Assembly (NCBI GenBank): GCA_900315675.1 | Contig: OMZY01000001.1 | Location: 310,001 to 374,000, forward strand | DNA from: an uncultured Eubacteriales bacterium | GTDB taxonomy: Bacteria > Bacillota > Clostridia > Christensenellales > Aristaeellaceae | Length of the DNA: 64,000 bases | Direction of reading: 5' to 3' | Shown here: one piece after another, positions 11,164 through 25,007 of the stretch | Layout: each line of letters opens with the position of its first letter | How positions within the stretch are numbered: position 1 is the first letter of the stretch | The notes under the pieces: model-generated | Seen by the model: the letters and a program-made list of their open reading frames with translations, nothing else | Database searches by the model: none | What the model was told of the DNA's origin: nothing | Made by a program: the position numbers and the translations under genes

Positions 11164-11200
11164 GGTATGCCCGGCAGGATTCGAACCTGTGACCTTCAGA
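11163..11200 (-). repeat. Left attachment site of element 1: displaced 3' half of tRNA-Arg
   Basis: These 38 bp are identical to 24816-24853 of the intact tRNA-Arg gene (T arm, acceptor 3' strand and CCA). To the right the similarity continues imperfectly: the anticodon-loop segment reads as TCG instead of CCG. The sequence right of the core therefore came from element 1's own attachment site and not from this tRNA gene. There is no 5' half, so this is not a functional tRNA. Confidence 0.85.
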
Positions 11201-11238
11201 TTCGAAGACAGTATGGAGGAAACTGGAAAGGGCAGGAA

Positions 11239-11529
11239 TTATAAAACTTTGCGGCGGTTTGCGGTTGTCTGCTGACTCCCGTTTGACTCCCGCACAGGGC
11301 TGTTCATGGCGTTGATGCTCTTTATGGCGGAGCGGATCCGGAGGTCTGACACATGGTCGTAGATCCGGAGAATCATCTTTTCATCGGCATGTCCCATCCA
11401 GCGGATGGCGAGCTTCATATCCACGCCGGCGTCCCGGAGCATAACGCAGAAGGAACGGCGGAGATCGTGCGGGCGGACGGTCCATTGCTTCCAGTCCATG
11501 AAGCGGAGGGCGTTCGCTTCCTCCTTTTA
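11239..11529 (-). pseudogene. Truncated tyrosine integrase of element 1 (C-terminal stump)
   Basis: The frame reads EEANALRFMDWKQWTVRPHDLRRSFCVMLRDAGVD, then IRWMGHADEKMILRIYDH and a short tail. It therefore holds the tyrosine-recombinase HxxR box, the second His (GHADEKM) and the nucleophile Tyr, but lacks the N-terminal arm-binding and core-binding domains and the first catalytic Arg. Reading upstream, the integrase frame ends in a stop at 11527-11529, where sequence belonging to the opposing phage gene begins. This stump sits beside the left attachment site, as an integrase gene of this prophage should. The 5' two thirds were lost in the deletion that also truncated the giant gene. Confidence 0.85.
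11272..11292. repeat. Element 1 arm-type repeat, left copy
   Basis: GACTCCCG-TTT-GACTCCCG, two 8-bp units on an 11-bp period. The copy at 16651-16671 is identical and in the same orientation. Here it overlaps the 3' end of the integrase stump, 72 bp inside the attachment core. The position fits an integrase arm-binding site. Confidence 0.75.
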
Positions 11530-11594
11530 CCCTGGGCAAGGAGGCGCTGGCCAGCTTTATTGCACGCAGCGCCGGAGCCGAAGGCAGCGAAGAA

Positions 11595-14500
11595 GTGGCC
11601 AGCGATCTGCTGAACACAGTATTGGATAGTGTGCTGAGCAGGATCTATGACCATGAGACAGAGATTGAACAGCGGTACAATGAACTGATTGCATCCGGCA
11701 TGAGCGATCGGCAGGCGTGGCAGCAGGCCCTGAAAGAAAAAATGGAAGAAACGGGCTGGAGCTTCCTTGGCGGCGCTTTGAGCGGCGGACTGATGGCCGG
11801 CGGACGCGTTGTTACGAACCTGTCGAACCAAAGCCGGACAGGGAAACAGGCCAGGACAAACGGCGGAGCAAAACAGCTGTATGACATGGCCATGAATATG
11901 GGCGAAGACACGAACAGCAGGCAGCTGGCCAGTAAGATTCAGCTGACGGAAGAAGGCGAGATTCAGGCCAAAAACTATGAGATCGGCCGGCTGGCGCAGG
12001 CGCTGATGAGCGAAACCGGAGACCAGTATAATAAAACGGTCAGGGGAACCGTTGAAAAGGACATCAAAGAAAAACTGAATGCAGCCGGGATATACCGGAA
12101 CGCTGACGAATACGCAAAGATCATTGCCGACTCGATGACGGGTGACGGCAAGATGAGCGCCAGGAGTAAGAGGACGCTTGCGAAGGACGCAAGGGCTATT
12201 GAAGTCTGGAAAAAATACAATATGCCCGGAGAGTACGCTGACAACCTGAACAGCAGGATCCGTGAGGCCACAAAGGCAGAAACAGCCGCGCAGAAGAGCG
12301 TGGCGGAGGCTGTGACCGGCCGGAAGATCCGGAGCTATGAAGGCGGAATCAACCTGGCGGGCTTTGACGAGATCCGGGAGGCGGAGCGTAACGGCGCGAA
12401 GCGGACCGGCGGAAAGCGGGAAGTGCTGATCAACGGTCAGTTTGCGAAGCTGGACAGCGTGCGGGTGGTCAAGGAAGGCGACAGCTGGAAGCTGAAGCTG
12501 AGCGTGAACGGAAAGGACGTTAACGCAAGCGACCTGCAGGCGACGGACTACGGCACGGCGCAGATCATCCGGAACGCGGCTGTCATGCCGGAATTTTACG
12601 GCGAGCGGTTTACAAACCAGATGCTGGAAGCACAGGAGAAGGGCAGGCTGAAGAGCGACAACATCCTGGACGATCTGCAGGAAGCGGGCATGGTCCGGCT
12701 GGCGGGCTATGCCGGCATTGCCATGCCGCAGACGAAGCTGGACAGGCAGCTGGCCGGTGAGATCTGGGCGGAGAGCCTGAAGGAGCACGCGGAGAACCGG
12801 AAGGCCCAGGTGGCAGGCGCGAACCGGAAGGAAAGCGGCACGGTGAGCTTTGACGGGGATGACTACGGAACAGAAGCATACAACAAAAAGGTAAGCAAGC
12901 TGGACGGCGAGACCCGGGCCAAGCTGGACTATGTAGCCGGGATCGCGCAGCGGGCCGGTGTGGATGCGCGCTTTACGGATCTGAGCAAGACAGACACGAC
13001 CACCTACGGCTGGGAAAACAAGAAGGGCATCGGGATCAACATCGGCGGCCTGAATTACGGCACGATCGAGGGCAAGAGCACGCCGACGGGCAAGCATGAT
13101 ATCGTTGTTACCTTCGGCCATGAGCTGACACACTGGCTGCAGCGGAACAGCCTGGCCGGGTATAACCGGCTGGAGCAGTACATCATGAATCAGTTTGCCC
13201 AGCAGCGGGGACTGAAAGGCCTCCGGCAGCGGCTGGACTATTTCATGACCCAGGAAGGCCTGAGCCTGGAGGACGCCATGAGCGAGGTTGTGGCCAACGG
13301 CAGCGACCAGATCCTGGCCGACGAGCAGGTGGCGCAGCATATCCAGCAGACGGACGGGAAGCTGTACACCCAGATCAAGAACTTTGTACAGAACCTTGTC
13401 GACCGGATGAAGAAGGCGATCACCGGTACCAGCATGCAGGACAGCATGAGCAGGGACGCCCGGGTGATCATGGCCAACGGCATCAACGACCTGCGGAAGC
13501 GCTGGATGGGTGCCTGGGATGAAGCACTCAGCCGGGCGGGGCAGGAAACAATGGGAGAGCAGGTGGAGGGCCAGACAGAGCAGACGGAAAAGTACAGCAA
13601 ACATGAATTTGATGGACATGATTACATCCTGATTGAGGAACCGGCATTTAGTGGAAGAACTGATGTTACACAGGAAGAAATACGAGAATATCTCAAAGAT
13701 AATATTGGTGATTACTATACCATTATTGAGAGCGGGCAAAAGGTAATGATCACCAAGCAGACAACGAAGGAGTACGCATTCTCCGGAAACACAAGAAGCA
13801 TAAAAAGAAACAATCTTGATGCGTATGCAGGAAAAGCCAATGCAGCATCTGGAATTGATGAAATTGTAGAAATTGCAAGCAATAGAAGACACGAGAAACC
13901 AAACCACAAAAATGCAGCGAGAGCCAAATATGGTGCTTACAGATACGATACTGTGTTTGCTGTAAAAGTAAACGATGCGTACAAAGCATATGACGCTGAG
14001 CTAATAATTCTGAATTATGAAAATGGAAATAAGGAATTATACGATCTTGTCATTACAAAAGAAGATACCGCTCTTGAGCAACACCTGTTGGTTAAGGCGA
14101 GACACTCAAGAGCGGTACCCTCTACAGGTACTATAGCACATAATGAGAAAAATGACAAGAAGATGAGCAAGGCAGAGACAAAAAACAATGAAGGCGCTCC
14201 GGGAAGCTCCATGGTCGATGACATAGACAACATGGAACAGGCCGTTACACCTTCGACACAAAGTATAAATGACATCGATGAGACTGTCAAGCTGGACCGT
14301 GAATACGAAGAGGCGGTAGAGCGCGGAGATATCAAAACGGCCACGGACATGCTGATGGACAAGCTCAGAAACACACAGGGCGTTATTCCATTTATGGCAC
14401 CTGAGTGGGACGCGGGTGAAAACAGGGAGATTGCCAAGGCACTGAAGACAGGCGATCCAGAAGCAATCGAAACAGCAGCGGAGAAAATGAGCCGGTATGT

Positions 14501-16325
14501 ACCGGATAATGCGGTGCTGATCCCGATGCCCGGACGCAGCGGGAAACTGACGGAGGATTCCTGGACAGTAAAGCTGGCAAACGCCATCGGAGAGAGAACG
14601 GGACGCCCGGTAGTGCTTGCGCTGGAAGGAGCGGAACGCGGAAGCAGGCACGAGGCAAAGGCGATCGGAGAGCTGGGTGCAAGCCAGGAAGAACTGGGCT
14701 TCCATCAGGTTGAGGAGATCCCGGAAGGAACCTTCCCGATATTTGTGGATAATATCGTAGGGAAAGGAGTAACAGCTGACGCGGCAAGAGAAGCCATGGG
14801 CGGAGGAATGACGCTGGCCTATACAAAGTCACTGAGATCTCCGGGAATAGAAGGACTGAAGAATGCGGTTGTTACATACGAAACAAAGAGCAAAGGCGGC
14901 GGACTGATTCCGCTGAGCGAGCGGTTCAATGTCAGTAAACGGGATGTGAGGTATTCCCGGGCGGAGGAAGCCCTGGACGCAGGCGTATGGATGGCGAACC
15001 TGACACCCAGCGCGGTGCAGACAGAGGATGAGCGCGTCCTGATGCAGGCCTACAAGGATAAGCGGATCAGTATCAGCCTGTGCCTGAAGCGGCAGATCGA
15101 CTACAAGGCGAAGATCCGGGAGCTGGAGAGCAAGGAGAGCCTGACCGGAGAACAGCGGACGGAACTTGAAAACCTGCAGGATAAACTGGAGAAACAGCAG
15201 GAACGGATGGCGCAGCTGGAAAAAGAGATGCAGCAGATCACCAGCAGCGAAGGCTATGCCGGCATGATGTACCGGTACAACATGGTGCTGAAGGACTTTG
15301 TACAGGGCCGGACCAGCGAGCAGGTGCGGGACACCGTGGAAGCCATGCTGAACGAAGTGAAGGCCGCACAGGAGCAGATCACCAGGCAGGCTGAGGAACT
15401 GAAGAACCTGGAACAGACGCAGGCAGTCAAGGCCATGAAGAGCTTTATGGGCAAGACGAGCCTGGGACAGCAGGCATCGATGCTCCGGAAACAGTACAAC
15501 AGCACGATGAACAAGGCGGAGGTCGAAGACAGACTGGCTGCCATGGCCCTGAAGCTGGCCAGCGGGCAGGACATCCAGACGGATGCTGAAGCGCTGGCGG
15601 CCGACCTGGTGGACAAGATCCGCGGGATCCGGAGCGAGAACCTGGAGAGCCTGCGGGGCATGACGCTGAACATCGGCGAAAGCCTGAGAAACGAGCTGAA
15701 GGCCGAGAACAGCAGCATGAAGGAGATCCGCGGGGCGATCTACGGCAGCGGCCTGGTGATCAAAGCGGAAGGAAACAGCCGGCTGACGGAACAGTGGAAC
15801 GAGCTCCGGGAGAATAACAAGGCCCTGCCGGACATCGACGGCATGGCGGAGATTGACGCCCTGCACACGATCGTTGACTTCATCAGCGGAGAGCTGCAGG
15901 CAAGCCGCGGATCCGAACAGTACAACGTGAACATGGAAGAAGCGACGGCGATCTGCTACGGCGCGGCGGCCAGCGTGACAACGTACCTGGTAAAGGATCC
16001 GGCAGCGAGAAAGCAGATCACCGAGCTGATGACCCAGATTAAGGATCTGAGCAGGAAAACCGGCAACATCGCGGAGGGCATGGATCAGCTGAGCGAGAAG
16101 ATGCAGGAGGTTGTGAAGGCCGGCTATAAGGCAGCGGACTGGACGAGCATCCTGCAGAACGACGTGCATACCGCGATTGACTATTACAACAAAGTAGCCA
16201 GGCAGGCAGCCCAGGAAGAAAAGGCGCAGGTGAAAAAGAACCTGATCGAGCAGCTGAGGAGCGAGAACGCCCGGAAGCTGTACGAGCAGCAGGACAAATA
16301 CGAAGAACTGATCAAAAATGTTTGA
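11595..16325 (+). CDS. Giant polyvalent phage protein, 5'-truncated (zincin motif, nuclease-like and phosphoribosyltransferase-like modules, coiled coil)
   Basis: An open frame of 1576 residues from GTG 11595. The coding pattern runs on upstream to about 11532 (GKEALASFIARSAGAEGSEEV), so the true N-terminus is missing and this is the 3' part of a still larger gene. Visible modules: a metallopeptidase-like HELTHW at ~residue 508; a low-GC block (~670-850, 13.6-14.15 kb) with KYSKHEF...NRRHEKPNHKNAARAKYGAYRYD, resembling the toxin/nuclease-like large-polyvalent-protein domains; a phosphoribosyltransferase-like block (~930-1095, VLIPMPGRSG...FPIFVDNIVGKGVTADAA); and a long coiled coil (~1155-1290). 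Such proteins occur in tailed phages and are thought to be injected with DNA or to act in the head. Its start, expression and function in this remnant are doubtful. Confidence 0.7.
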   Translation: MASDLLNTVLDSVLSRIYDHETEIEQRYNELIASGMSDRQAWQQALKEKMEETGWSFLGGALSGGLMAGGRVVTNLSNQSRTGKQARTNGGAKQLYDMAMNMGEDTNSRQLASKIQLTEEGEIQAKNYEIGRLAQALMSETGDQYNKTVRGTVEKDIKEKLNAAGIYRNADEYAKIIADSMTGDGKMSARSKRTLAKDARAIEVWKKYNMPGEYADNLNSRIREATKAETAAQKSVAEAVTGRKIRSYEGGINLAGFDEIREAERNGAKRTGGKREVLINGQFAKLDSVRVVKEGDSWKLKLSVNGKDVNASDLQATDYGTAQIIRNAAVMPEFYGERFTNQMLEAQEKGRLKSDNILDDLQEAGMVRLAGYAGIAMPQTKLDRQLAGEIWAESLKEHAENRKAQVAGANRKESGTVSFDGDDYGTEAYNKKVSKLDGETRAKLDYVAGIAQRAGVDARFTDLSKTDTTTYGWENKKGIGINIGGLNYGTIEGKSTPTGKHDIVVTFGHELTHWLQRNSLAGYNRLEQYIMNQFAQQRGLKGLRQRLDYFMTQEGLSLEDAMSEVVANGSDQILADEQVAQHIQQTDGKLYTQIKNFVQNLVDRMKKAITGTSMQDSMSRDARVIMANGINDLRKRWMGAWDEALSRAGQETMGEQVEGQTEQTEKYSKHEFDGHDYILIEEPAFSGRTDVTQEEIREYLKDNIGDYYTIIESGQKVMITKQTTKEYAFSGNTRSIKRNNLDAYAGKANAASGIDEIVEIASNRRHEKPNHKNAARAKYGAYRYDTVFAVKVNDAYKAYDAELIILNYENGNKELYDLVITKEDTALEQHLLVKARHSRAVPSTGTIAHNEKNDKKMSKAETKNNEGAPGSSMVDDIDNMEQAVTPSTQSINDIDETVKLDREYEEAVERGDIKTATDMLMDKLRNTQGVIPFMAPEWDAGENREIAKALKTGDPEAIETAAEKMSRYVPDNAVLIPMPGRSGKLTEDSWTVKLANAIGERTGRPVVLALEGAERGSRHEAKAIGELGASQEELGFHQVEEIPEGTFPIFVDNIVGKGVTADAAREAMGGGMTLAYTKSLRSPGIEGLKNAVVTYETKSKGGGLIPLSERFNVSKRDVRYSRAEEALDAGVWMANLTPSAVQTEDERVLMQAYKDKRISISLCLKRQIDYKAKIRELESKESLTGEQRTELENLQDKLEKQQERMAQLEKEMQQITSSEGYAGMMYRYNMVLKDFVQGRTSEQVRDTVEAMLNEVKAAQEQITRQAEELKNLEQTQAVKAMKSFMGKTSLGQQASMLRKQYNSTMNKAEVEDRLAAMALKLASGQDIQTDAEALAADLVDKIRGIRSENLESLRGMTLNIGESLRNELKAENSSMKEIRGAIYGSGLVIKAEGNSRLTEQWNELRENNKALPDIDGMAEIDALHTIVDFISGELQASRGSEQYNVNMEEATAICYGAAASVTTYLVKDPAARKQITELMTQIKDLSRKTGNIAEGMDQLSEKMQEVVKAGYKAADWTSILQNDVHTAIDYYNKVARQAAQEEKAQVKKNLIEQLRSENARKLYEQQDKYEELIKNV

Positions 16326-16620
16326 AGGCATTTGTGAAGTCCTCCGGATGGAAATGGAGAAGCTGGACGAAAAGTACGCAAGCGGCAATATCCCGCTTAC
16401 GGACAAAGATCTGGGTGATATCGACAAGATTGCTCATGCGCTGAAGAGCATCGAGACCTACAGCGCGATGAAAGGGAGCAGCGAATACGGCAACCGGGAC
16501 GGCGGAAGCTATGCCCGGGGTCAGAGCCGGACAAGCGGCAGGTACATCAACCGTGACGGAGAAAGCTATGGCTACGATCCATACCATGGCGAACCTGAAC
16601 GGATGGACAGGCGGCATTAA
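16318..16620 (+). CDS. Small phage protein of element 1 remnant
   Basis: The 100-residue product begins MFEGICEVLRMEMEKLDEKYASGNIPLTDKDLGDIDKIAHALKSIETY and ends in a Gly/Ser/Arg/Tyr-rich tail (GNRDGGSYARGQSRTSGRY...). The N-terminal helical part with DIDKIAHALKSIET recalls small proteins encoded among the structural genes of Clostridia and Bacilli phages; its function is not known. The ATG overlaps the end of the giant gene by 8 nt, so it is translationally coupled. A terminator follows at 16625, ending the surviving phage transcript. Confidence 0.7.
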   Translation: MFEGICEVLRMEMEKLDEKYASGNIPLTDKDLGDIDKIAHALKSIETYSAMKGSSEYGNRDGGSYARGQSRTSGRYINRDGESYGYDPYHGEPERMDRRH

Positions 16621-16624
16621 CCGC

Positions 16625-16650
16625 AAGGGAGGCATAAAGCCTCCCTTTTT
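16625..16650 (+). terminator. Terminator ending the element 1 late transcript
   Basis: AAGGGAGGC, loop ATAAA, GCCTCCCTT, then T: a 9-bp perfect stem with a T-run, 4 nt after the stop codon. Confidence 0.92.
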
Positions 16651-16671
16651 CTGACTCCCGTTTGACTCCCG
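16651..16671. repeat. Element 1 arm-type repeat, right copy
   Basis: Exact 21-bp copy of 11272-11292 in the same orientation, 108 bp inside the right attachment core. The pairing of the two copies at both ends shows element 1 spans 11163-16821. Confidence 0.8.
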
Positions 16672-16735
16672 TTTTGATGTTATTTTATGCTTTTTATGCG
16701 TTTTATGAACAATTTATAAGTAAAAAATTAAGACA

Positions 16736-16774
16736 TAAAAAATCCGCAAGCCTTTGATTCACAAGGACTTGCGG
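16736..16774 (-). terminator. Element-borne replacement terminator at the middle tRNA fragment
   Basis: On the minus strand CCGCAAG and AAGG pair with CCTT and CTTGCGG, followed by ATTTTTTA. It lies just beyond the tRNA 3' end at 16779 and shares the CTTGTGAATCAA loop sequence with the terminator at 24776-24811. It probably arrived with element 1 to terminate the tRNA-Arg transcript. Confidence 0.75.
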
Positions 16775-16778
16775 TATG

Positions 16779-16821
16779 TATGCCCGGCAGGATTCGAACC
16801 TGTGACCTTCAGAGTCGGAGT
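16779..16821 (-). repeat. Junction attachment site between elements 1 and 2 (tRNA-Arg 3' half)
   Basis: These 43 bp are identical to 24819-24861 in the intact tRNA gene, including the CCG anticodon loop. They mark the right end of element 1 and the left end of element 2. This copy continues ATACAT instead of ATACCA after the acceptor strand, so it lacks an encoded CCA. No tRNA 5' half is present. Confidence 0.88.
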
Positions 16822-16842
16822 ATTGGACAAGGGAAAAAGTAT

Positions 16843-17011
16843 CCTGTTGTAACCTGTTGTAAGTTGTTGTATTTTCAACACTTTGAAGGTAAATAGCTTG
16901 TTGTAAGTTGTTGTAAGTTATCGTATGTTTTGATAAATTTCTTTACACTTTTCTTTACACTTTTTAATTCTGCCGATTTATTGATAAATAAGGTGTTGTA
17001 GCTTGTTGTAA
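16843..17011. repeat. Phased 10-bp direct repeats (K-T-T-G-T-T-G-T-A-A type) near attL of element 2
   Basis: Eight near-identical decamers in three clusters: 16843-16872 (three units, CCTGTTGTAA twice then GTTGTTGTAT), 16898-16927 (CTTGTTGTAA, GTTGTTGTAA, GTTATCGTAT) and 16992-17011 (GGTGTTGTAG, CTTGTTGTAA). The 10-bp phase puts all units on one face of the DNA, as for arm-type integrase or excisionase sites. The whole gene-free stretch 16672-17138 consists of the terminator at 16736, the junction attachment site, these repeats, the arm pair at 16941 and the integrase terminator. Confidence 0.75.
16941..16964. repeat. Element 2 arm-type repeat pair, left copy
   Basis: CTTTACACTTTT twice in perfect tandem (12-bp period), 120 bp inside the attachment core. 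A matching pair lies at 24727-24751 near the other end, same orientation. Confidence 0.75.
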
Positions 17012-17079
17012 TGCCTTTTTTCGTGTTAAAAATACGTGTATTTTTTAGTATATTGTCATATCCTGCCTATAAATGGCAT

Positions 17080-17106
17080 AGAAAAAGGACGGTCATAAAC
17101 CGCCCT
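17080..17106 (-). terminator. Terminator of the element 2 integrase transcript
   Basis: On the minus strand GGGCGGT, loop TTATG, ACCGTCC (one G-U pair), then TTTTTC. It lies 33 nt beyond the integrase stop. Confidence 0.75.
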
Positions 17107-17138
17107 ATTTTGCTTTGTAGCTGTGAGGATGATAATTA

Positions 17139-18350
17139 TCATTCGCCCATTGCTAAAGCCTTTGCAAGCCTATCTGATGCCGATTTAAGCGCATCTGCAT
17201 TAGTGCCACAGTAATAGTTTAATGTTGTATCGGGTTTTGAATGCCCAAGTATACGCTGTACTTCAACTATAGTTGATTGATTTGCAAGCAATAATGTTGC
17301 ACAGGTATGACGGAGATCATGCGGACTGACCATGCGGAGATTATGCGACTTATTGAACCTTGCAAGCCATTGGGTGATGCTGTCCGGTCTGATAGGCTGA
17401 TAAGGATCAATAGGACTGCCAAAGATGAAAGCTGAAGGCATCAGAATTGATCCATACTGTTCAGCCTGGTCTTTCTGCCAAGCTTTCAAAAGGCCTTTTA
17501 ACATAGGATCAATGGGAATGACTCTATCAGAATTTAATGATTTAGTTTCTTTGACATAGTTTTTTCTATCTGTTTCCTTGTTGTTAATCACATCACGGCA
17601 GACGGTCAGAGTATTGCTGTTGAAGTCGATATCCTGCCATTTTAATCCTGCTAATTCGCCCCTACGTAAACCGCACCGAATCAGAACGTTCATAGCTGAT
17701 TTCCAATACATAGAAGCATCAGAATTTAAGCAGGACAGAAACAGTTTAGCTTCATCCTCTGTCAAGAAATCTACTTCTTTACGTTCCTTCTTAACGGGAG
17801 TTATAAAACGCATAGGATTCTTTTCAATCATGCCATGCTTATCGGCAAAGTTAAAGGCCACAGTAAGCACCTTTCTGAACTGATTGACATATGTAGCTGA
17901 ATACGTGCGATTCTGACCGTTTTTGCCCCTTTTATACGTTTCCTTGGTTAAATCTACAAGATAGGTTTCAATGTCGATAGAACGGATGCTATCAAGCTTT
18001 TTATGACCAAAGCGAGAAACCAATTTATCACATATGTCTTTGTAAAAACCAACTGTTGAAGGGGAATGCTTGCTATTGGAAACAAACACAGGAATAAACT
18101 GTTCTTCAATGAAGTACTTGAAGGTGAAACGCTGATCCGGAACATTACCCTTTTTAACTTCAGTTTCCCATACATCAGCTTCAGTCTGCATTTTCTTCAA
18201 AGCCTTGGCAGGAGTCATCCCCACAGGAGCTTTTACGGTCTTTGTGACCATCTTTTCCTTACCTGTGTTTTCATCAATGCCACAGTAAGTGAAGAAACGA
18301 TAACTGATGATCTGACCGTCCTTGTTATAGTTCGGTTTAACGTGTGCCAT
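17139..18350 (-). CDS. int: Tyrosine integrase of element 2
   Basis: A site-specific recombinase expected to integrate and excise element 2 at the tRNA-Arg 3' end. Domains in order: an N-terminal arm-binding part with VKPNYNKDGQIISYRFFTYCGIDENTGK (~1-50), a SAM-like core-binding domain (~70-180, FKYFIEEQFIPVF...RKVLTVAFNFA), and the catalytic domain with Arg in RCGLRRGELAGLKW, HDLRHTCATLLL (HxxR), LGHSKPDTTLNYY (second His and nucleophile Tyr). The set is complete, so it is probably active. ATG 18350 has GGGGG 9 nt upstream and overlaps the 3' end of the repressor gene by 14 nt, so repressor and integrase form one leftward transcript. It is clearly more AT-rich than the flanking chromosome. 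Confidence 0.93.
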   Translation of the reverse strand: MAHVKPNYNKDGQIISYRFFTYCGIDENTGKEKMVTKTVKAPVGMTPAKALKKMQTEADVWETEVKKGNVPDQRFTFKYFIEEQFIPVFVSNSKHSPSTVGFYKDICDKLVSRFGHKKLDSIRSIDIETYLVDLTKETYKRGKNGQNRTYSATYVNQFRKVLTVAFNFADKHGMIEKNPMRFITPVKKERKEVDFLTEDEAKLFLSCLNSDASMYWKSAMNVLIRCGLRRGELAGLKWQDIDFNSNTLTVCRDVINNKETDRKNYVKETKSLNSDRVIPIDPMLKGLLKAWQKDQAEQYGSILMPSAFIFGSPIDPYQPIRPDSITQWLARFNKSHNLRMVSPHDLRHTCATLLLANQSTIVEVQRILGHSKPDTTLNYYCGTNADALKSASDRLAKALAMGE

Positions 18351-18945
18351 TGTTCCAAACCCCCATTCTAACTTTATCAATTGCCTTGTTCATACAGTTC
18401 TTTGCATCCTCTGCATGGAGTCTTGCTATTTCCAAGAAAACACCTTGATACTTATCCAAGTCACCGCCATTCAATACGTGCAGGATGTTGAGCCTGTGAA
18501 CGAATTTAGCAAGGTTATCTTCTGTTGTGCCTTGTGAGTCATTCAACAGAATGATGATAGTACATAACAGTTCATTGATAGCTTCTTGGAATTCTGCCTT
18601 TTCAATAAGTTGACTAACAGGGTTAGGAATCTCTTTATCCTCACAGGTTTTATTTATTCTTTTCAGAACCCGTATAGCTTCAGAGGACAAACCTGTTTTT
18701 TCTTCAATAATTTTTTCAACAGGTTCAGTTTTGCCATTAACTAAATAGTCCAGAGTGACACCAAAGTAATTTGCAAGTCTGGAAGTTATCAACAGGGAAG
18801 GTTCACTTTTGCCAATTTCAAAATTCGAATAAACAGCATTTGAAACACCAACTTTATTAGCAATGGTTTCCTGCAAGGCATCACCACGGAGCAGTTTTAA
18901 ACGTTCGCCAATGTTGGATTTTTCTTTCCTCTGTCCTTTTTTCAT
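18337..18945 (-). CDS. XRE-family master repressor of element 2
   Basis: The 202-residue protein has an N-terminal helix-turn-helix (~10-70: IGERLKLLRGDALQETIANKVGVSNAVYSNFEIGKSEPSLLITSRLANYFGVTLDYLVNG), a linker with TGLSSEAIRVLKRIN as often seen in repressors of Firmicute phages and islands, and a helical C-terminal half that probably dimerises. There is no LexA-type serine protease domain, so induction by RecA self-cleavage is not expected. In satellites such as SaPIs the equivalent repressor is lifted by a helper-phage protein, and that is a plausible analogy here. The gene is divergent from the rightward genes; AAAGGAG lies 12 nt upstream. The operators should lie in 18946-19094. Confidence 0.85.
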   Translation of the reverse strand: MKKGQRKEKSNIGERLKLLRGDALQETIANKVGVSNAVYSNFEIGKSEPSLLITSRLANYFGVTLDYLVNGKTEPVEKIIEEKTGLSSEAIRVLKRINKTCEDKEIPNPVSQLIEKAEFQEAINELLCTIIILLNDSQGTTEDNLAKFVHRLNILHVLNGGDLDKYQGVFLEIARLHAEDAKNCMNKAIDKVRMGVWNNGTR

Positions 18946-19032
18946 TTCAGCATCGTTCTCCTTTCATAAATGACCCCAAGGACAGTATATATAAAAATGA
19001 AAACAAAATCAATACTATTATGAATAACAAGT

Positions 19033-19060
19033 TTGAAAAAATAAACAAAATTAGTATCAT
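19033..19060 (+). promoter_or_regulatory. Rightward promoter of element 2
   Basis: TTGAAA (19033-19038), 16-bp spacer, TATCAT (19055-19060), 35 nt before the first rightward ATG. The divergent gap is very AT-rich. ATACTATTATGA upstream and TTAGTATCATAA over the -10 look like related half-inverted motifs that the repressor could read. Confidence 0.5.
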
Positions 19061-19094
19061 AAAATTAGATCAGACGAAAGGAGATGATAAAGAT

Positions 19095-19286
19095 ATGTCT
19101 GACAGGATGGATGATGCTATTAAGAAAGCACGTTCCGCATACCTACGTGAGTGGAGAAAGAATAATCCCAATAAAACGAAAGAATACACAAAACGTTATT
19201 GGGAAAAACGTGCTATGCGTGAGCAGATGCAAGAAAAGGAGATGAGAGTAAATGCAGGAGATAACAAAGCGGTTTCTAACAATTGA
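19095..19286 (+). CDS. Small basic protein of element 2 (REWRKNNP...YWEKRA type)
   Basis: The 63-residue protein is highly charged: MSDRMDDAIKKARSAYLREWRKNNPNKTKEYTKRYWEKRAMREQ. This arginine/lysine-rich helical pattern is common in small proteins beside phage and island repressors, but I know of no tested function; nucleic-acid binding is plausible. ATG 19095 is chosen over an upstream in-frame ATG at 19020 because AAAGGAGATG sits just before it and the promoter at 19033-19060 lies downstream of 19020. Its 3' end overlaps the excisionase-like gene by 35 nt. Confidence 0.75.
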   Translation: MSDRMDDAIKKARSAYLREWRKNNPNKTKEYTKRYWEKRAMREQMQEKEMRVNAGDNKAVSNN

Positions 19287-19449
19287 AGAAACAGCAGAGC
19301 AGACCGGATTGTCTGTGTATTATCTCCGGCAAGGTATCCGTAATGGATACATTCCGCACATTAAGTGCGGAAACAAAAGCATGATTAACTATGCAAAGCT
19401 GATTGAGTTTTTAGACTCTGAATCAGTTAATGGCAATTGCCAAGAATAA
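19252..19449 (+). CDS. Excisionase/AlpA-like DNA-binding protein
   Basis: The 65-residue product reads FLTIEETAEQTGLSVYYLRQGIRNGYIPHIKCGNKSMINYAKLIEFLDS, the winged MerR-like helix-turn-helix of the DNA-binding excisionase family (IEETAEQTG, YYLRQGI, IPHIKCGNKSMINYAKL). Such proteins bend DNA at attachment arms to steer the integrase toward excision, and AlpA-like ones also activate transcription. The phased 10-bp repeats at 16843-17011 are candidate targets. AAAGGAGATGAGAG lies upstream. The gene overlaps the small basic protein gene, so the two are coupled. No other excisionase candidate is present in the element. Confidence 0.85.
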   Translation: MQEITKRFLTIEETAEQTGLSVYYLRQGIRNGYIPHIKCGNKSMINYAKLIEFLDSESVNGNCQE

Positions 19450-19453
19450 AAAA

Positions 19454-19558
19454 CCTGCCGTATTTGAAACCTTTTACAAGGCTTGCTTAACGGCAGGAAG
19501 GGGGTTTAGTCCATATGGGTTAACCACCATACTTATTATAGCATATAAGCCTTGTAAA
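19454..19558. promoter_or_regulatory. Nested inverted repeats between the excisionase-like gene and the 299-residue gene
   Basis: CCTGCCGT (19454-19461) pairs with ACGGCAGG (19490-19497). Within that loop, TTTACAAGGCTT (19473-19484) is the exact complement of AAGCCTTGTAAA (19547-19558). If RNA, the two stems are geometrically exclusive or form a pseudoknot, which would suit an attenuator deciding read-through into the replication genes. If DNA, the 12-bp dyad is a protein-binding site. Neither stem has a clear T-run. Confidence 0.55.
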
Positions 19559-19593
19559 CCAAAGAAAATCAAAGCATAAAGGAGCGTAATACA

Positions 19594-20493
19594 ATGATGA
19601 ATTATTTTGAACTTACAGCTAAACAGAAAGAAATTTACCAGTCAATTGCAAAGGGAATAACAGTAAAACCAGGATCATCGGCAGAGTCCATCAGAAGCAT
19701 TGTTCGCTTTGGTTTTATCTTGGATCAGAAGTCAAAAAGTGAGAAACAAAGAAAGATAGCAGAAAACAATGATACTTTATCAAAAAGGCTTGCTGATGAA
19801 GCGAATACAGTTCTGATGCAGGAAATGAGACAGCACACTTCAGATACGAAAATGGTTATTAAAAGAAGGACGGCTGAATTGTTCAAGGCGAAAAGAGATG
19901 CAGTAACAGAATATGTTAAAAGGATGCCTTCCGACGATTTAAACCGAAAATTGCAGTATATTCAAAACTATGGTTCTTCCTTTGACAAGGAATTATGGGA
20001 AATATTCATTACTGATCCGGAGATAGTATCGAATTACCTTGCTTGTAAAATCGTTGAGAAAATAGCTGATGAAAACGGTGTTGAATTCTCATCAGCACCT
20101 AAATTGAGCAAAATTCTGGAAAAGATTTCTGACCTTGAAGAAATGGTAGACAGTGCGATAAATCGTATTGATGATGAACACGATATTATCCTTGGCTCAC
20201 TCATATCTGAATCTCCGGACAGTCCTGTTTCCAAGCTGATAAATGAAATTGATACTGATCTTGCGACGATTATTCCTGCACCACAAAAGACAATCATGAA
20301 AAGGCTGAAGGATGCAGAGAAGCACGCATATGATGTAAGTGATTTCCGGACATCCGCACGTATCAAAATCTTCTTGGAGAATCACGGGAATACATTATCA
20401 ACACCGGAAGAAATCAAAGAAGATTTGCTGAAAGAAGCAGAAGATCTTGTTACACAGGGGATGAATGCAAAAAAGGGTGAGAACAATGCATGA
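19594..20493 (+). CDS. Element 2 protein of unknown function preceding the primase
   Basis: I do not recognise the 299-residue product. It is soluble, without signal peptide or membrane segment, and predicted to be mostly alpha-helical. An opening LTAKQKEIYQSIAKGITVKPGSSAESIRSIVRFGFILDQK could be a small DNA-binding unit. The middle is a charged helical region (KRLADEANTVLMQEMRQHTSDTKMVIKRRTAELFKAKRDAVTEYV). The latter half contains short acidic helices (DLEEMVDSAINRIDDEHDI). AAAGGAG precedes ATG 19594. The stop lies 8 nt inside the primase gene, so it is coupled to the replication module; an accessory replication or helper-interaction role is only inference. Confidence 0.65.
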   Translation: MMNYFELTAKQKEIYQSIAKGITVKPGSSAESIRSIVRFGFILDQKSKSEKQRKIAENNDTLSKRLADEANTVLMQEMRQHTSDTKMVIKRRTAELFKAKRDAVTEYVKRMPSDDLNRKLQYIQNYGSSFDKELWEIFITDPEIVSNYLACKIVEKIADENGVEFSSAPKLSKILEKISDLEEMVDSAINRIDDEHDIILGSLISESPDSPVSKLINEIDTDLATIIPAPQKTIMKRLKDAEKHAYDVSDFRTSARIKIFLENHGNTLSTPEEIKEDLLKEAEDLVTQGMNAKKGENNA

Positions 20494-21391
20494 TCTGTAT
20501 ATCCCACAGGCACTGAAAACCATGTCTAATTGGTGTGCTTGGAGATTAGAGCAGAGAAAGGATCAGACAACAAAAGTGCCTTACCAAACAAACGGTAAAC
20601 GGGCATCATCAACAGACCGGAATACATGGTCAACGTTTGATCTGATTTCAGAATTGCTTGCACGTGATGACCAATTCAAAGGATATGGTTTCATGCTTTC
20701 TGACGGTATTGTGTTTGTGGATGTAGATCATTGTATTGCTGATGATGGCACATTGGACAAACGGGGAGCAGACATTTTGTCTGCCTTCCCCTTGTCCTTT
20801 GCAGAGATCAGTCAAAGCGGTAAAGGTCTACACATCCTCACACGGGGTAGCATTCCAAGAAACTTTCACAATCAGAAGCAAGGTGTTGAAATGTATTCAT
20901 ATGCACGTTTCTGTGCGATTACAGGAAAGGCCGTGCAAGCGTATGAACCCACACAGGAACAGGATGGAATAGACTACGTATTCAACAAATATAGTACCCG
21001 TACCGGAAACGGCATCAGTACCTATTCTGTGCCATTACAAACGGGCATCAGTACCTTTTCGGATAGATGGGTTATTGCTCATGCTATGAACATAGCAGGA
21101 CAAAAAGGAAGAAACTTCCGTACCTTGTTTTCCGGAGATATATCTGAATATGGTTCACAGTCTGAAGCTGATTCTGCCTTGTGTACGTTGCTTGCATTCT
21201 GGTGTGACCGTGACCAGGGACAGATGGACAGGATATTCAGACAATCCGGTTTGTACCGAAAAAAGTGGGAAAGGGAAGATTACAGAACCCGTACCCTAAA
21301 CCATGCTTGCGAACATATACCGGAATCAATATCTGAATATCAAAGACGGATGAACAGAGAGAAGGCGAGGGCTATTGCTGAAGAACGATAA
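20486..21391 (+). CDS. Archaeo-eukaryotic-type primase-polymerase of element 2
   Basis: This 301-residue protein begins LYIPQALKTMSNWCAWRLEQRKDQTTKVPYQTNGKRASSTDRNTWSTFD, the usual N-terminus of phage and plasmid prim-pol proteins (NrS-1-like). It has the catalytic acidic pair in GIVFVDVDHC and the later SGKGLHILTRG and EMYSYARFCAITG blocks, equivalent to the family's conserved His/Arg region. It should make primers for replication of the excised element. ATG 20486 is preceded by GGGTGAG; a further in-frame start at 20465 is weaker. It overlaps both neighbours (8 nt and 17 nt), so primase and helicase are separate polypeptides made from one coupled unit, as in many satellites. Confidence 0.85.
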   Translation: MHDLYIPQALKTMSNWCAWRLEQRKDQTTKVPYQTNGKRASSTDRNTWSTFDLISELLARDDQFKGYGFMLSDGIVFVDVDHCIADDGTLDKRGADILSAFPLSFAEISQSGKGLHILTRGSIPRNFHNQKQGVEMYSYARFCAITGKAVQAYEPTQEQDGIDYVFNKYSTRTGNGISTYSVPLQTGISTFSDRWVIAHAMNIAGQKGRNFRTLFSGDISEYGSQSEADSALCTLLAFWCDRDQGQMDRIFRQSGLYRKKWEREDYRTRTLNHACEHIPESISEYQRRMNREKARAIAEER

Positions 21392-22802
21392 AGTCACACA
21401 GGAGAACGTGTATAAACGGATTAGTTCACTTTCTCCTTTAGACAAAGCAGAATACAGGCAATATGACGGTATAGCGTTTGCACGGCTGTTCTCTGATTGC
21501 TTTGGTACAATCCTACGATACAATGTTACATCAAAGTGTTATATGGCATATGATGGCACAAAATGGGTACAGGATACGGAGAGCATGATAGCAGACAACT
21601 ATTCAAAGATGTTTGCCCGTGCACTTGCCCGTTATGCGTATGAAAGGGAAGATGCACCAAAGGATTTTGTTCGTATTGTGCAAGGATACGGGGATTATAA
21701 CAAAAGACGGATTCTGACCATTGATGCACGGTCATTCAATCCGATAAATCAGAATGATTTAGACAATCACCCGTATTTGCTGAACTGTCAGAACGGTATT
21801 CTTGATTTGACTAACATGAAGCTTTTACCGCATGATTCAAAGCTTTTACTATCAAAGCAAGCACTATTCAGCTATGATCCATCCGCACAGAGTCAGCTAT
21901 TTATAAGGTTTGTGGATGAGATAATGCAAAGTGATTACGAAAAGATCACTTATATACAAACACTTTTAGGTAGTTCCTTGCTTGGTGAAAACACGGCAGA
22001 AGAATTCTATATGTTATACGGCAGTACAACAAGGAACGGTAAAAGCACTCTGTTGGGTACGATTGAATACTTGTTAGGTGACTATGCTTGTAGTATCAAT
22101 CCGGAATCATTGGCACAGGTAAAGGAAGCTAATGGCCGGAATGCATCCGGAGATATTGCAAGGCTTGACGGTATAAGGTTTCTGCATTGTACAGAACCGC
22201 CAAAGCGTATGAAGCTCAATGTTGAGCTAATAAAGAAGATGACAGGCGGTGATGTGATAACCGCACGGCATCTGTATGAAAGGGATTTCAGCTTCATTCC
22301 GGTCTTTAATCTGTTCGTTAATACGAATTATCTGCCCGTTGTCCTTGATAATTCACTGTTCACAAGTGGACGGGTTAAGATCATAACGTTTGACCGTCAT
22401 TTTGAACCGAATGAACAGGATACAAGGCTGAAGATGAAATTACGGTCATCGGATAATCTTTCCGGTATTGCTAATTGGCTATTGGCAGGATTAAAGCTGT
22501 TCCATGAACAGCATGATAGGTTTATTGTTCCAGAGTCCGTAATACGTGCGACTGCTGATTATATGGAGAAGTCCGACAAGCTAAAAACCTTCCTGTCAGA
22601 CTACATGACGGAAGATCCGAAAGGCTGTGTTACGGCAAAGTCCGTCTATGATGCATACGCACAGTGGTGTAAAGAGAACGGATACGGGGTAGAAAATAAA
22701 CGTAACTTCATGGATGATTTACGGAGTAAAAATCTACTATCCGAATACGGGACCGTGGGCGGTAAAACAATGCATAATGTTATTACCGGATATTCGTTTT
22801 AG
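21375..22802 (+). CDS. D5-like/SF3 replicative helicase of element 2
   Basis: The 475-residue protein carries an N-terminal D5-N-like region (IADNYSKMFARALARYA...FNPINQNDLDNHPYLLNCQNGILDL) and the P4-family helicase core with Walker A GSTTRNGKST (~215-224), Walker B-type DIARLDGIRFLHCTEPPK, and the sensor region FIPVFNLFVNTNYLPVV. A winged-helix-like C-terminus follows (DYMTEDPKGCVTAKSVYDAYAQWCKENGYG). Such proteins melt the origin and unwind DNA for phages and satellites. Translation starts at TTG 21375 inside the primase gene. Directly downstream lies a symmetric iteron block (22823-22919) that may be its binding site. Confidence 0.9.
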   Translation: MLKNDKVTQENVYKRISSLSPLDKAEYRQYDGIAFARLFSDCFGTILRYNVTSKCYMAYDGTKWVQDTESMIADNYSKMFARALARYAYEREDAPKDFVRIVQGYGDYNKRRILTIDARSFNPINQNDLDNHPYLLNCQNGILDLTNMKLLPHDSKLLLSKQALFSYDPSAQSQLFIRFVDEIMQSDYEKITYIQTLLGSSLLGENTAEEFYMLYGSTTRNGKSTLLGTIEYLLGDYACSINPESLAQVKEANGRNASGDIARLDGIRFLHCTEPPKRMKLNVELIKKMTGGDVITARHLYERDFSFIPVFNLFVNTNYLPVVLDNSLFTSGRVKIITFDRHFEPNEQDTRLKMKLRSSDNLSGIANWLLAGLKLFHEQHDRFIVPESVIRATADYMEKSDKLKTFLSDYMTEDPKGCVTAKSVYDAYAQWCKENGYGVENKRNFMDDLRSKNLLSEYGTVGGKTMHNVITGYSF

Positions 22803-22822
22803 CTAAACCCTTATATTTCAAG

Positions 22823-22919
22823 CGGTTTTGACGGTGTTGTGCATTTTGTGCAAAACCGGAGTAAAGTCCCTATAAGAGCTATTTAAAAAACTTTACTCTG
22901 AAAATGCACATTTTGCACA
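22823..22919. other. Candidate replication origin of element 2 (symmetric iterons around an AT-rich core)
   Basis: Two TGTGCA hexamers on a 9-bp period (22838-22843, 22847-22852) face two TGCACA hexamers on the same 9-bp period (22905-22910, 22914-22919). Between them lie a 9-bp inverted repeat, GAGTAAAGT (22859-22867) and ACTTTACTC (22890-22898), and an AT-rich middle with ATTTAAAAAAC. CGGTTTTG/CAAAACCG (22823-22830, 22851-22858) frames the left pair. This lies between the helicase and terminase genes, the position of the origin in SaPI-type islands. Function is inferred from layout only. Confidence 0.65.
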
Positions 22920-22942
22920 GTTCACAGAAAGGAGTGTTATAA

Positions 22943-23497
22943 ATGGCAGGAAGAAAACCGAAAAATGAACCTATGACGAAAGAGGAAATGATAGAAGCAG
23001 GACAGCAGAACAAGGGAACAAGGATCTATAAGGCACAGTCAAAAGAAGTGACTGACAAAGCAATACGGCAATCAATAAGCAATGCTATTGCCGATGTTAA
23101 ACGCTTTGATGGACGGCAGAAAATACAGCTTGAAGATACGAAAGCAGTCAAGGCAATTGCTGAAAACTACCTTGAATCCTGTGCGGTTAATGCCTGTTTC
23201 CCGTCAATGACAGGGTTAGCTATGGCACTTGGACACACAAGGACAAACCTGTACATCTATATGCAGAAAAAGCAGGATGATGAAACAGCTATCTTCCTTA
23301 CACAGTTTCATGATCTGTTAGCTGATATTCTGTCAGAAAATGCTTTGAAAGGGAATGCGAATAACATTACTGCAATCTTTGTTTTGAAAGCATTATACGG
23401 TTATAAGGATACACAGACATTTGAACTTGTACAGGGTACACCTTTCACAGAAGCAACGGCTGATGACCTTGTGCAACGTGCAGAACTGCTTGATTGA
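22943..23497 (+). CDS. Terminase small subunit-like protein (gp3/DNA-packaging type)
   Basis: The 184-residue product has a basic N-terminus (MAGRKPKNEP) and the core AIAENYLESCAVNACFPSMTGLAMALGHTRTNLYIYMQKKQDDETAIFLTQFHDLLADILSENALKGNANNITAIFVLKALYGYKDTQ. That order (target DNA-binding HTH with TGLA..LG, a helical middle, then a FxLK..YGYKD end) is characteristic of the gp3-like DNA-packaging/small terminase family. Small terminases recognise the packaging site and hand DNA to a large terminase. No large subunit is present here, as in satellites that redirect a helper phage's packaging motor. AAAGGAGTG precedes ATG 22943. Confidence 0.8.
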   Translation: MAGRKPKNEPMTKEEMIEAGQQNKGTRIYKAQSKEVTDKAIRQSISNAIADVKRFDGRQKIQLEDTKAVKAIAENYLESCAVNACFPSMTGLAMALGHTRTNLYIYMQKKQDDETAIFLTQFHDLLADILSENALKGNANNITAIFVLKALYGYKDTQTFELVQGTPFTEATADDLVQRAELLD

Positions 23498-23504
23498 CCA
23501 AAGT

Positions 23505-23540
23505 AAAAAAGTGGTGGAAATCATCCACCACTTTGTTTAT
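23505..23540. terminator. Bidirectional terminator between terminase-like and secreted-protein genes
   Basis: AAAGTGGTGGA (23508-23518) and TCCACCACTTT (23524-23534) form a perfect 11-bp stem. T-rich sequence follows on the plus strand and an A-rich stretch precedes it, so it can act in both directions between the two convergent genes. Confidence 0.85.
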
Positions 23541-24004
23541 TTAAATCCAAGATCCGGTTTTCCTGTATATGGAGTAAAAATAACAGCACCACCGAGATAA
23601 AGATACCATCCATCTTTCATATCAAGATCAATAAATTCAGGATTTGATTCTCCGAAAGCACTAAAGCCGGGGGAAGAGAGCTTCAGAAAAGCTGACTGTG
23701 AGCCATAACCAGGAATTGTGCCTGTTTCATCTAGTGTATCAAAGTAATAGACATTAAAAATTTCATGTTGTTCGGCAACAGTACGGAGTGACCAATGACC
23801 TGCCGGAATATCAACACCAATCTGATACGTTCCGGCAGGAACAGTAACTTCCTGCCATTCTTCGCATTGCCACATGGCAAGATTGATTTTGTTCTTTAAT
23901 TCAACTAGTTCATCAAATGACATACCAGACAGATCAACATCAGAAGCAAACGCTGAACCTATCAGTAATAAGCAGATCAATAGACAGGCAATGAGTTTTT
24001 TCAT
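23537..24004 (-). CDS. Secreted small protein, cargo of element 2
   Basis: ATG 24004 (AGGGGGG upstream) starts a 155-residue protein with a clear signal peptide, MKKLIACLLICLLLIGSAFA, then SDVDLSGMSFDELVELKNKINLAMWQCEEWQEV. A repeated-looking beta segment follows, VTVPAGTYQIGVDIPAGHWSLRTV, similar to small exported proteins frequent in Clostridia, whose function I cannot name. There is no lipobox Cys at the cleavage site, so it is probably released or loosely wall-bound. It is transcribed opposite to the replication genes at the element's right end, the usual place for accessory genes in islands, so it may alter the host surface or phage adsorption (inference). Confidence 0.75.
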   Translation of the reverse strand: MKKLIACLLICLLLIGSAFASDVDLSGMSFDELVELKNKINLAMWQCEEWQEVTVPAGTYQIGVDIPAGHWSLRTVAEQHEIFNVYYFDTLDETGTIPGYGSQSAFLKLSSPGFSAFGESNPEFIDLDMKDGWYLYLGGAVIFTPYTGKPDLGFK

Positions 24005-24068
24005 TATATCCCCCCTATACATCTTTTTTTCATTTTAATAGTTATATAAAAGATTGACAAGTCTTGTA

Positions 24069-24263
24069 TTACAATGTGACAACACGTTCTTTATCTTTTG
24101 CCCTTGTACCAAGAGCAAAACCATAGCTGAATGCTGTCGTAATGGCATTGTATCGGTTTTCATCTATCATAAGACGGTATAATTCATCAAAACTAATATC
24201 ATAGGCTGTTGGTATCTTACCAACGGTCTTTTTTGCTGTCTGTTCCATATTACGCTTTGCCAT
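24069..24263 (-). CDS. Small hypothetical protein, cargo of element 2
   Basis: ATG 24263 is preceded by AAAGGGG with 8-nt spacing. The 64-residue product reads MAKRNMEQTAKKTVGKIPT, then YDISFDELYRLMIDENRYNAITTAFSYGFALGTRAKDKER. It is soluble and basic at the N-terminus. I do not recognise a characterised family; the helical FDELYRLM...AFSYGFALGTRA pattern recalls small ORFs on plasmids and integrative elements. It lies 65 nt upstream of the secreted-protein gene on the same strand and could share its transcript. The gene-free stretch to its right (24264-24726) is AT-rich; I see only the short palindrome CCCCAAGGGG near 24526 and no gene. Confidence 0.6.
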   Translation of the reverse strand: MAKRNMEQTAKKTVGKIPTAYDISFDELYRLMIDENRYNAITTAFSYGFALGTRAKDKERVVTL

Positions 24264-24726
24264 ATGTATAACCCCTTTCATCTTTGATAATTCATGCTAT
24301 CACGGATCATCAGCCTATAACCGCCTATTTAAATTAGTTCACATTTGAAACCGCACAAGCCTTATCAGATAAAGGCATGGACAGAAAGCAGAAATGGTCT
24401 TTTTAGCTTTTGAAACACTATTGAAATATAAATCAGACAGGCACTCTAATTAGAATAGAGCAAACGAAAAAGGCTTTTGTTTTTTGAATTTATTTACAGG
24501 ACTAACCTTGTGTGACAGGGTGATTCGTATATCCCCAAGGGGTATGCTTTGACCATGACAGATAGCATAAAAGCATACATATCATAGTAAATGATGCATT
24601 GATAGATGATATTCAGATCATTGTTTCAAGGTGAAATGATAGTCTTATTCGCTTTACCTAAAATAAAAACAGACTACCAGAGTCAGACAGGGAATAGGGG
24701 TATATTTTGAACGTTTTTCAGCAAAA

Positions 24727-24751
24727 CTTTACACTTTCTCTTTACACTTTT
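24727..24751. repeat. Element 2 arm-type repeat pair, right copy
   Basis: CTTTACACTTTCT then CTTTACACTTTT, the same unit and orientation as 16941-16964, 68 bp inside the right attachment core. It marks the element's other end. Confidence 0.75.
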
Positions 24752-24775
24752 GAAAAGTGCTGCAAAGACAGAAAA

Positions 24776-24811
24776 AAATAAAACCCTGTGAGTATTGATT
24801 CACAAGGGTTT
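24776..24811 (-). terminator. Current terminator of tRNA-Arg, supplied by element 2
   Basis: On the minus strand AAACCCTTGTGA pairs with TCACAGGGTTT, followed by TATTTTTTT. It shares the CTTGTGAATCAA loop core with the terminator at 16736-16774. Confidence 0.85.
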
Positions 24812-24815
24812 GAGG

Positions 24816-24892
24816 TGGTATGCCCGGCAGGATTCGAACCTGTGACCTTCAGAGTCGGAGTCTGACACTCTATCCAACTGAGCTACGGGCAC
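24816..24892 (-). tRNA. tRNA-Arg (anticodon CCG), integration target of the element pile-up
   Basis: The full cloverleaf is visible on the minus strand: acceptor GTGCCCG with CGGGCAT (first pair G-U), D arm GCTCAGTTGGATAGAGT, anticodon stem TCAGA/TCTGA around loop CTCCGAC (anticodon CCG, reading CGG), T arm with GGTTCGAATCC, discriminator A and encoded CCA. The 3' half (24819-24861) is repeated at 16779 and mostly at 11163. Element integration has kept the gene functional in sequence, with its 3' end and terminator now provided by element 2. Confidence 0.95.
24819..24861 (-). repeat. Right attachment site of element 2, inside tRNA-Arg
   Basis: 43-bp direct repeat with 16779-16821, covering the acceptor 3' strand, T arm and anticodon loop. 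The crossover must lie within this segment. Confidence 0.88.
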
Positions 24893-24968
24893 TCAACGGG
24901 AGCTATTTTATCCTTTTCGGGCAAGATTGTCAAGGTGTAAGGATGGCAGAATTCTGCGGGCTCCCCAC

Positions 24969-25007
24969 AAAAAAGCATCCGCTGGAACCGGACGAATCCG
25001 CGGATGC
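24969..25007 (-). terminator. Terminator of the thioesterase operon
   Basis: On the minus strand GCATCCGC (from 25007) pairs with GCGGATGC (24982-24975) and is followed by TTTTTTG, 12 nt after the thioesterase stop. Confidence 0.8.

Follow-up and report, generated by a model that had tools for sequence, protein, structure and literature searches.

A PICI-like island with its own gp3-type terminase small subunit at a tRNA-Arg gene of an uncultured Clostridia bacterium

We analysed a 64-kb stretch of DNA from an uncultured Clostridia bacterium (here called the window) and found, at a tRNA-Arg gene, an island of 8,040 bp which is very likely an integrated, apparently intact phage satellite. It would work like a phage-inducible chromosomal island (PICI), with its own terminase small subunit (TerS) redirecting a gp3-type helper phage. 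As read from the sequence, the island is inserted in the tRNA gene, carries integrase, excisionase, repressor, primase, helicase and gp3-type TerS genes, lacks virion and large-terminase genes and has circular relatives. In the mechanism we propose, the XRE-type repressor would silence the island until a helper phage relieves repression, and integrase and excisionase would excise it at a 44-nt attachment (att) core. Primase and D5-type helicase would replicate it, possibly from an origin near an inverted repeat at 22838-22919, and the island TerS would bind island DNA and bring it to the gp3-type large terminase of the helper, whereupon satellite DNA would fill helper heads. A putative secreted protein would be cargo serving the host cell. 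The first-pass annotation of the window had already read the island as a PICI-like phage satellite, and our results support this, with induction and packaging staying at the level of deduction. Detailed knowledge of phage satellites comes from a rather small number of cultured bacteria. If our reading is true, a compact satellite type exists across gut and rumen Clostridia, named isolates included, which would offer a tractable system in commensals, and terminase redirection would extend to gp3-type packaging.

The island is bounded by a perfect direct repeat of 44 nt (100% identical), whose copies at 16778-16821 and 24818-24861 are spaced 8,040 bp apart. The right copy lies within an intact tRNA-Arg(ccg) gene (24816-24892, minus strand). 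The repeats and the tRNA named earlier are real, with a length of 44 nt instead of 43 bp; the earlier outline had the bounds right and overlooked a third att core and a tandem remnant, described below. Two CTTTACACTTTT repeats at the left end (16941-16964, plus strand) and two CTTTACACTTT(C/T) repeats at the right end (24727-24751, plus strand) are candidate arm sites of the integrase. Allowing at most one mismatch, CTTTACACTTTT occurs four times in the 64 kb, two copies per island end, where 0.28 would be expected, and at least four copies were seen in 0 of 100 shuffles. GC content is 36-42% in the 1-kb intervals from 17001 to 25000 and 42-60%, mostly above 47%, in the remaining ones. An uninterrupted site with neither island nor remnant was present at six of the 29 loci taken from other genus genomes (L083, L084, L087, L098, L102 and L109), where the left flank (to about 11071) joins the intact tRNA and the right flank within about 0.2 kb; at the other loci compared with the window the flanks were different, partial or rearranged. 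Across 45 genus genomes, the att core was found once in 35, twice in two, three times in the genome of the window and not at all in seven. The two sister genomes with two copies (G255 and G271) yielded no integrase or TerS match among the first 22 open reading frames (ORFs) of each stretch. Both copies in G255 are contig-terminal, which leaves room for an insert missing from the assembly.

Ten genes lie within the island. All ten were scanned against Pfam and PHROGs, while among relatives the full family scan covered selected genes. No structural gene was found among the ten, and the absence of capsid, tail, large-terminase and lysis genes stated in the first-pass annotation holds for them, as do its named genes and their order. 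A tyrosine integrase of 413 residues (17139-18380; PF00589, E 5e-26) and an XRE-type repressor of 202 residues (18337-18945; HTH_3, 2e-8) run leftward on the minus strand. Rightward, on the plus strand, follow a small basic protein of 88 residues (19020-19286), homologues of which adjoin helicases of other elements, an excisionase/AlpA-like protein of 65 residues (19252-19449; HTH_17, with TIGR01764 above cut-off), an orphan protein of 299 residues without accepted family match (19594-20493), a primase of 308 residues (20465-21391; NrS-1-type HBD 4e-23, PHROG primase 2e-76), a D5/P4-type helicase of 475 residues (21375-22802; D5_N 1e-19, with TIGR01613 above cut-off) and the gp3-type TerS of 184 residues (22943-23497; PF16677 6e-11, PHROG 606 4e-6). 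Two minus-strand genes occupy the far end: a putative secreted protein of 161 residues (23537-24022; phrog_23726, 4e-5), which is cargo of unassigned role with a signal-peptide-like start seen by eye, and a 70-residue ORF (24069-24281).

The TerS scores 42.8 bits against Pfam GP3_package (PF16677), for which the curated cut-off is 29.4. This bears out the gp3 type assigned earlier, and the possibility raised along with it, that the 184-residue protein is a transcription factor unrelated to terminases, was not borne out. Together with the PHROG terS match, the score also speaks against reading the island as an integrative element without packaging, which would move by excision, conjugation or transformation and whose TerS-like protein would be a DNA-binding regulator. 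Small TerS proteins can resemble regulators, and islands of about 6.5 kb with the same helicase and no terS do exist (L058 and L059), though helicase and integrase of L058 are broken. Against such an element, neither a relaxase nor any conjugation gene was recognised when the ten island genes were scanned against Pfam and PHROGs, and we give this reading little credence. The TerS also matched two structural families weakly (PHROG 4866 scaffolding, E 0.018; NCBIfam LAPAL, E 0.005, below cut-off). In 50,697 phage records, neither the TerS (at E 1e-3) nor the 299-residue protein (at E 1e-2) had a match. A scan of viral contigs with both proteins, the L021 TerS and the p300 protein of L026 (described below) found no relative, whereas the window helicase found one; a TerS scan of genome contigs likewise found none. 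Profiles searched against solved structures gave nothing below E 0.03, with 2ao9, a 'Phage protein', as a weak lead for the TerS (E 0.15). Structures predicted for the TerS and the 299-residue protein alone were unusable (mean pLDDT 42.7 and 43.8).

PICIs are defined by divergent regulatory genes, with int accompanied by the repressor and xis-pri-rep (and terS) running the opposite way (PMC6092414, in excerpt). The island shares with the PICIs and Staphylococcus aureus pathogenicity islands (SaPIs) of Gram-positive cocci this divergence of int and repressor from xis-pri-rep-terS, the lack of structural and lytic genes and the cargo at the far end. It would differ in its TerS, which by Pfam family is gp3-type. 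At 8,040 bp the island has about half the typical PICI size of around 15 kb (PMC6092414, in excerpt), which is a typical value and not a limit; satellites in general span 7 to 20 kb (PMC13376191, in excerpt). No capsid-size gene was recognised in it, and its host belongs to an uncultured Clostridia family. Capsid-forming PICIs require capsid genes of their own, and none is found among the ten. Attachment sites of PICIs are described as never occupied by prophages (PMC6092414, in excerpt), whereas the tRNA core of the island is shared with a phage-like remnant, which has decayed too far to count as a prophage. Because of the smaller size and of the remnant, which blurs the attachment-site comparison, and because induction and packaging are predictions from sequence, we call the island PICI-like rather than a PICI. 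As PICIs are found in many Firmicutes (PMC10803314, in excerpt), a PICI-like island in Clostridia is by itself unsurprising. The phage-inducible chromosomal minimalist islands (PICMIs) in the available part of the same paper are alike in small size and in having no recognised capsid-remodelling gene; for PICMI115, that part reports that no terS homologue was found, whereas the window island has one. The host had earlier been called a Clostridium, which we do not retain, the relatives being named as Clostridia or Clostridiales metagenome-assembled genomes (MAGs). Our search of the open-licence literature turned up no account of satellites from Lachnospiraceae or from the Clostridia family of the window, which does not show their absence from print. 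That the island represents an undescribed satellite family, as suggested earlier, is plausible rather than demonstrated.

We searched 300 genomes from the bacterial family of the window for relatives, and ten of them, the window's own included, gave TerS matches. Seven of the nine other loci are att-bounded islands of 7.8-13.6 kb, inserted at tRNA-Arg(acg) (L019, 9.6 kb; L025, 13.5 kb), tRNA-Thr (L020, 9.3 kb; L021, 9.6 kb), tRNA-Pro (L022, 9.5 kb; L023, 7.8 kb, with a 21-nt repeat) and tRNA-Arg(ccg) (L026, 13.6 kb, with a third att copy of 26 nt lying 4.2 kb further on). Another, L018 (G265:C10), is a 7,149-nt contig whose 141-nt terminal repeat makes it a 7,008-bp circle; besides a primase and an island-type TerS it has a gene weakly matching a head-tail adaptor, while an integrase search gave no match. 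The last, L024 (E 4e-4, no integrase match), is probably a chance match. A profile search found no large terminase in the fetched surroundings of the nine loci; the profile was built from six sequences (five from these hosts and one from a viral contig), all of which, with three landmarks, were PHROG-confirmed. Replication genes vary between the elements: AAA_25 in L020, L023 and L025, VapE in L021, DUF927 in L022 with a homologue in L019, and a primase in L026 and the window. A protein of 295-349 residues without accepted Pfam or PHROG match, here termed p300, follows TerS in five of the eight other TerS elements (L019, L021, L022, L025 and L026). Its profile added one further genome among the 300, G030, where p300 occurs with TerS, helicase and integrase, and found no match in the genome of the window. 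The 299-residue island protein was tried as a p300 member and not accepted (hhalign E 0.13, probability 0.45%; with nine rows E 0.0016, 16%); distant kinship is possible and not significant. A weak PADLOC match of the same protein to gop (E 0.0016, residues 253-293) and its Pfam matches, all below cut-off, were not accepted either. At E 1e-8, the island-type TerS profile matched four of 391 genomes of the class, the window's own among them; island-type TerS is uncommon in the class at this threshold.

A second route to relatives was an alignment of four helicases against genome contigs, of which the best 80 of 83 matches were used. Their host names are mostly Clostridia, with a few Bacilli and one Solobacterium. 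An island-type TerS lies downstream of the helicase in 27 of the 80 and, counted within 2.5 kb, in 25 of the 64 with at least 2.5 kb of downstream sequence. Single-protein queries combined with the profile recognised a large terminase in three of the 80, and the profile by itself, run over every ORF, in two; neither search found one in the sequence fetched for the 27 with TerS. Integrases were recognised in 20 of these 27, some contigs being short, and gene maps were drawn for 23. A conserved Lachnospiraceae type has the order integrase, repressor, small genes, primase-helicase, a 92-residue protein, HNH nuclease, TerS, small proteins, serine resolvase and sigma factor. Judging from these matches, related elements are present in many gut Clostridia. 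Cultured commensals are among their carriers, for example Parablautia muri D42-62 (L190) and Parablautia intestinalis D8-82 (L173). Another of these elements, L170 (CANPZE010000075.1, from the Lachnospiraceae MAG Lapin-002__bin9), measures 10,010 nt as a contig and has a 55-nt terminal repeat, equivalent to a 9,955-bp circle, and its 431-residue integrase is complete only across the contig junction. This circle is the clearest indication that elements of this kind excise, though it is no demonstration of packaging. In 46 viral contigs from the same helicase alignment, the profiles recognised TerS in two and large terminase in five; TerS occurs in L228 with an integrase and no large terminase found, and in L249 adjoining a large terminase.

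PF16677 was found at 23 loci in 22 of the same 300 genomes, above cut-off in 17 genomes. Ten are island-type (the window, G030, G032, G099, G112, G135, G211, G279, G280 and G296), G279 having no integrase match within 20 kb. At eight loci in seven genomes (L134-L137, L140, L141, L144 and L145) a PHROG-confirmed large terminase adjoins the TerS. Since PF16677-type TerS stand beside large terminases there, a helper class fitting the gp3-type TerS appears to live in these hosts. The prophage loci among them (L134-L137, L140, L141 and L144) share the TerS Pfam family with the island and differ from it by the adjoining large terminase; two of them, L134 and L135, also have a portal, and L135 a major head protein, neither of which occurs in the island. 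Four of the remaining loci (L139, L142, L143 and L146) were fetched and left unclassified, and G190 was not fetched. In a TerS tree, from which L145 and pieces shorter than 150 residues were excluded beforehand and in which long branches meet, 36 island-type TerS are separate from seven phage-type TerS with support of 100/99, and the window TerS groups with a set of nine island-type TerS (99/99).

These results bear on the explanation that the island is a deleted prophage which lost its structural half and kept early genes and terS, and thus a dying element and not a satellite. Prophage early genes have a similar look, members of the helicase family are also found in ordinary phages, the window helicase matches 990 phage records, and a degraded element adjoins the island at the same site. 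On the other side stand the att copies and candidate arm sites that match between the two island ends, the recurrence of this compact layout in separate islands that sit at other tRNAs and differ in replication genes, the separation of island TerS from TerS of phage-type loci in the same hosts, and the circular forms among relatives (L018 and L170). The first-pass annotation had proposed looking for relatives joined to capsid and tail genes: none of the eight other TerS elements or the 27 of 80 helicase relatives has a recognised large terminase in the stretches fetched, although a complete lack of structural genes fails for some of them, with a tape-measure protein in five and the weak head-tail adaptor match in L018. 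Based on this evidence we consider a deleted prophage improbable. We nevertheless slightly lowered our confidence in a satellite and in the broader proposal given below, and slightly raised that in a deleted prophage, because the tree is unrooted and a single island clade is not shown.

Several observations weigh against a working satellite. Rooted at its midpoint, the tree places the seven phage-type rows, which form one group, next to five of the island rows (91/78), and the island TerS therefore need not form one clade. Its rows were found in different ways, the island rows being partly collected by the island-TerS profile, which also picks up the TerS adjoining the large terminase in L249. 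The window TerS is only 18-28% identical over the alignment to the eight other island-type TerS, its 299-residue protein is an orphan, and a close copy of the whole island was not found in the genomes searched. Excision, induction, replication and packaging of the island are predicted from its genes. Further, no complete helper phage is recognisable in the genome of the window (assembly 95.7% complete), no second gp3-type TerS above cut-off was found in it, and a search for phrog_2 and phrog_38, the two main large-terminase types of phage-type loci, recovered one large terminase by the former and none by the latter. This single large terminase lies on another contig and adjoins a portal, the two making up a short stretch that is followed by apparent host genes; a 138-residue ORF without PHROG match holds the usual TerS place beside it. 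The natural helper candidate would be a gp3-type phage that infects this bacterial family.

A broader proposal, about which we have more doubt than confidence, is that the island belongs to an undescribed, Clostridia-wide satellite superfamily unified by gp3-type TerS distinct from those of co-resident phages, with freely exchanged replication modules and a recurrent protein of about 300 residues after TerS, in which tape-measure proteins of some members would build chimeric helper tails. As for genes specific to such islands, the 36 island-type and seven phage-type TerS stand apart in an unrooted tree with partly biased sampling, and p300 is not demonstrable in the window. A tape-measure protein (PHROG 1535) is encoded near TerS in five relatives, satellite-like elements of Clostridia, at L025:6601-9351, L162:14749-18579, L165:13923-16484, L197:14435-17431 and L218:13908-16868. 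The gene lies between direct repeats together with an integrase in L025 and L162, and without a recognised integrase in L218. PLE satellites of Vibrio are reported to build chimeric tails with a tape-measure protein of their own, and a figure legend of the same paper lists putative tmp genes for PLE-like elements and for capsid-forming PICIs (PMC12987554, in excerpt). The likeness drawn here between PLE and these relatives is one of gene type, and the window island has no tape-measure gene. Clostridia islands with such a gene would be a further tmp-bearing satellite group and, if this is true, could help to test chimeric tails as a general satellite trick. In L162, L165, L197 and L218, not in L025, a 126-136-residue ORF without PHROG function lies shortly before the tape-measure gene.

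The third att core copy, at 11164-11200, and the island enclose a degraded element of 5.6 kb (11164-16777), which looks like a deleted element in tandem with the island. It contains the C-terminal stump of an integrase (11239-11499, minus strand; PF00589, E 1e-7), which is 30% identical to the island integrase over 40 residues (E 0.002), and, abutting this stump, a truncated ORF of 1576 residues with a seemingly cut start (11595-16325, plus strand). Residues 2-178 of this ORF match phrog_22978 (E 2e-10), and one faecal phage record matches it with 23% identity over 20% of the query. As far as sequence tells, the island and an older remnant are inserted at the same tRNA site. By eye, every att copy is preceded by a hairpin with its own sequence, of which the terminator-like hairpin at 24785-24812 adjoins the tRNA 3' end; because each copy has its own hairpin, the elements may carry in a new terminator for the tRNA. 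A second genome has an island with a further tandem element at tRNA-Arg(ccg) (G032:C4, L026/L082; positions 39150, 52703 and 56933).

Some further features of relatives and of the island were noted. Lachnospiraceae elements encode a sigma-70-type sigma factor, an HNH nuclease right before TerS and a serine resolvase (L156:15816-16748, L160:11875-12120 and L160:14816-15508). Two viral contigs of about 9-11 kb, L230 and L004, carry a related helicase, a large terminase (PHROG-confirmed in L004 only) and portal-like genes, with a major head protein added in L004 and a 100-nt terminal repeat in L230; small phages and capsid-forming satellites are both conceivable. Two phage records from human faeces, MT837742 (6.3 kb) and MT836871 (8.4 kb), have an island-type TerS, and no large terminase was found in them. 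They would fit a Mexican study that worked with DNase-treated particles (PMC8361208, in excerpt), but as no accession link was found we do not count them as evidence of packaging. The inverted repeat at 22838-22919, directly before terS, is a candidate origin, TerS site or operator; its DNA fold has a z of -2.88 and was equalled by 0 of 200 shuffles. In a comparison with nine other elements, one of 30 shuffles equalled the fold in the window and 4 to 30 of 30 did so in the nine, and the repeat was rejected as a family trait, standing out in the window alone among the ten. Finally, the primase and helicase ORFs (20465-22802) overlap by 17 nt, and PHROG 1829 covers both as one protein, several relatives being likewise split.

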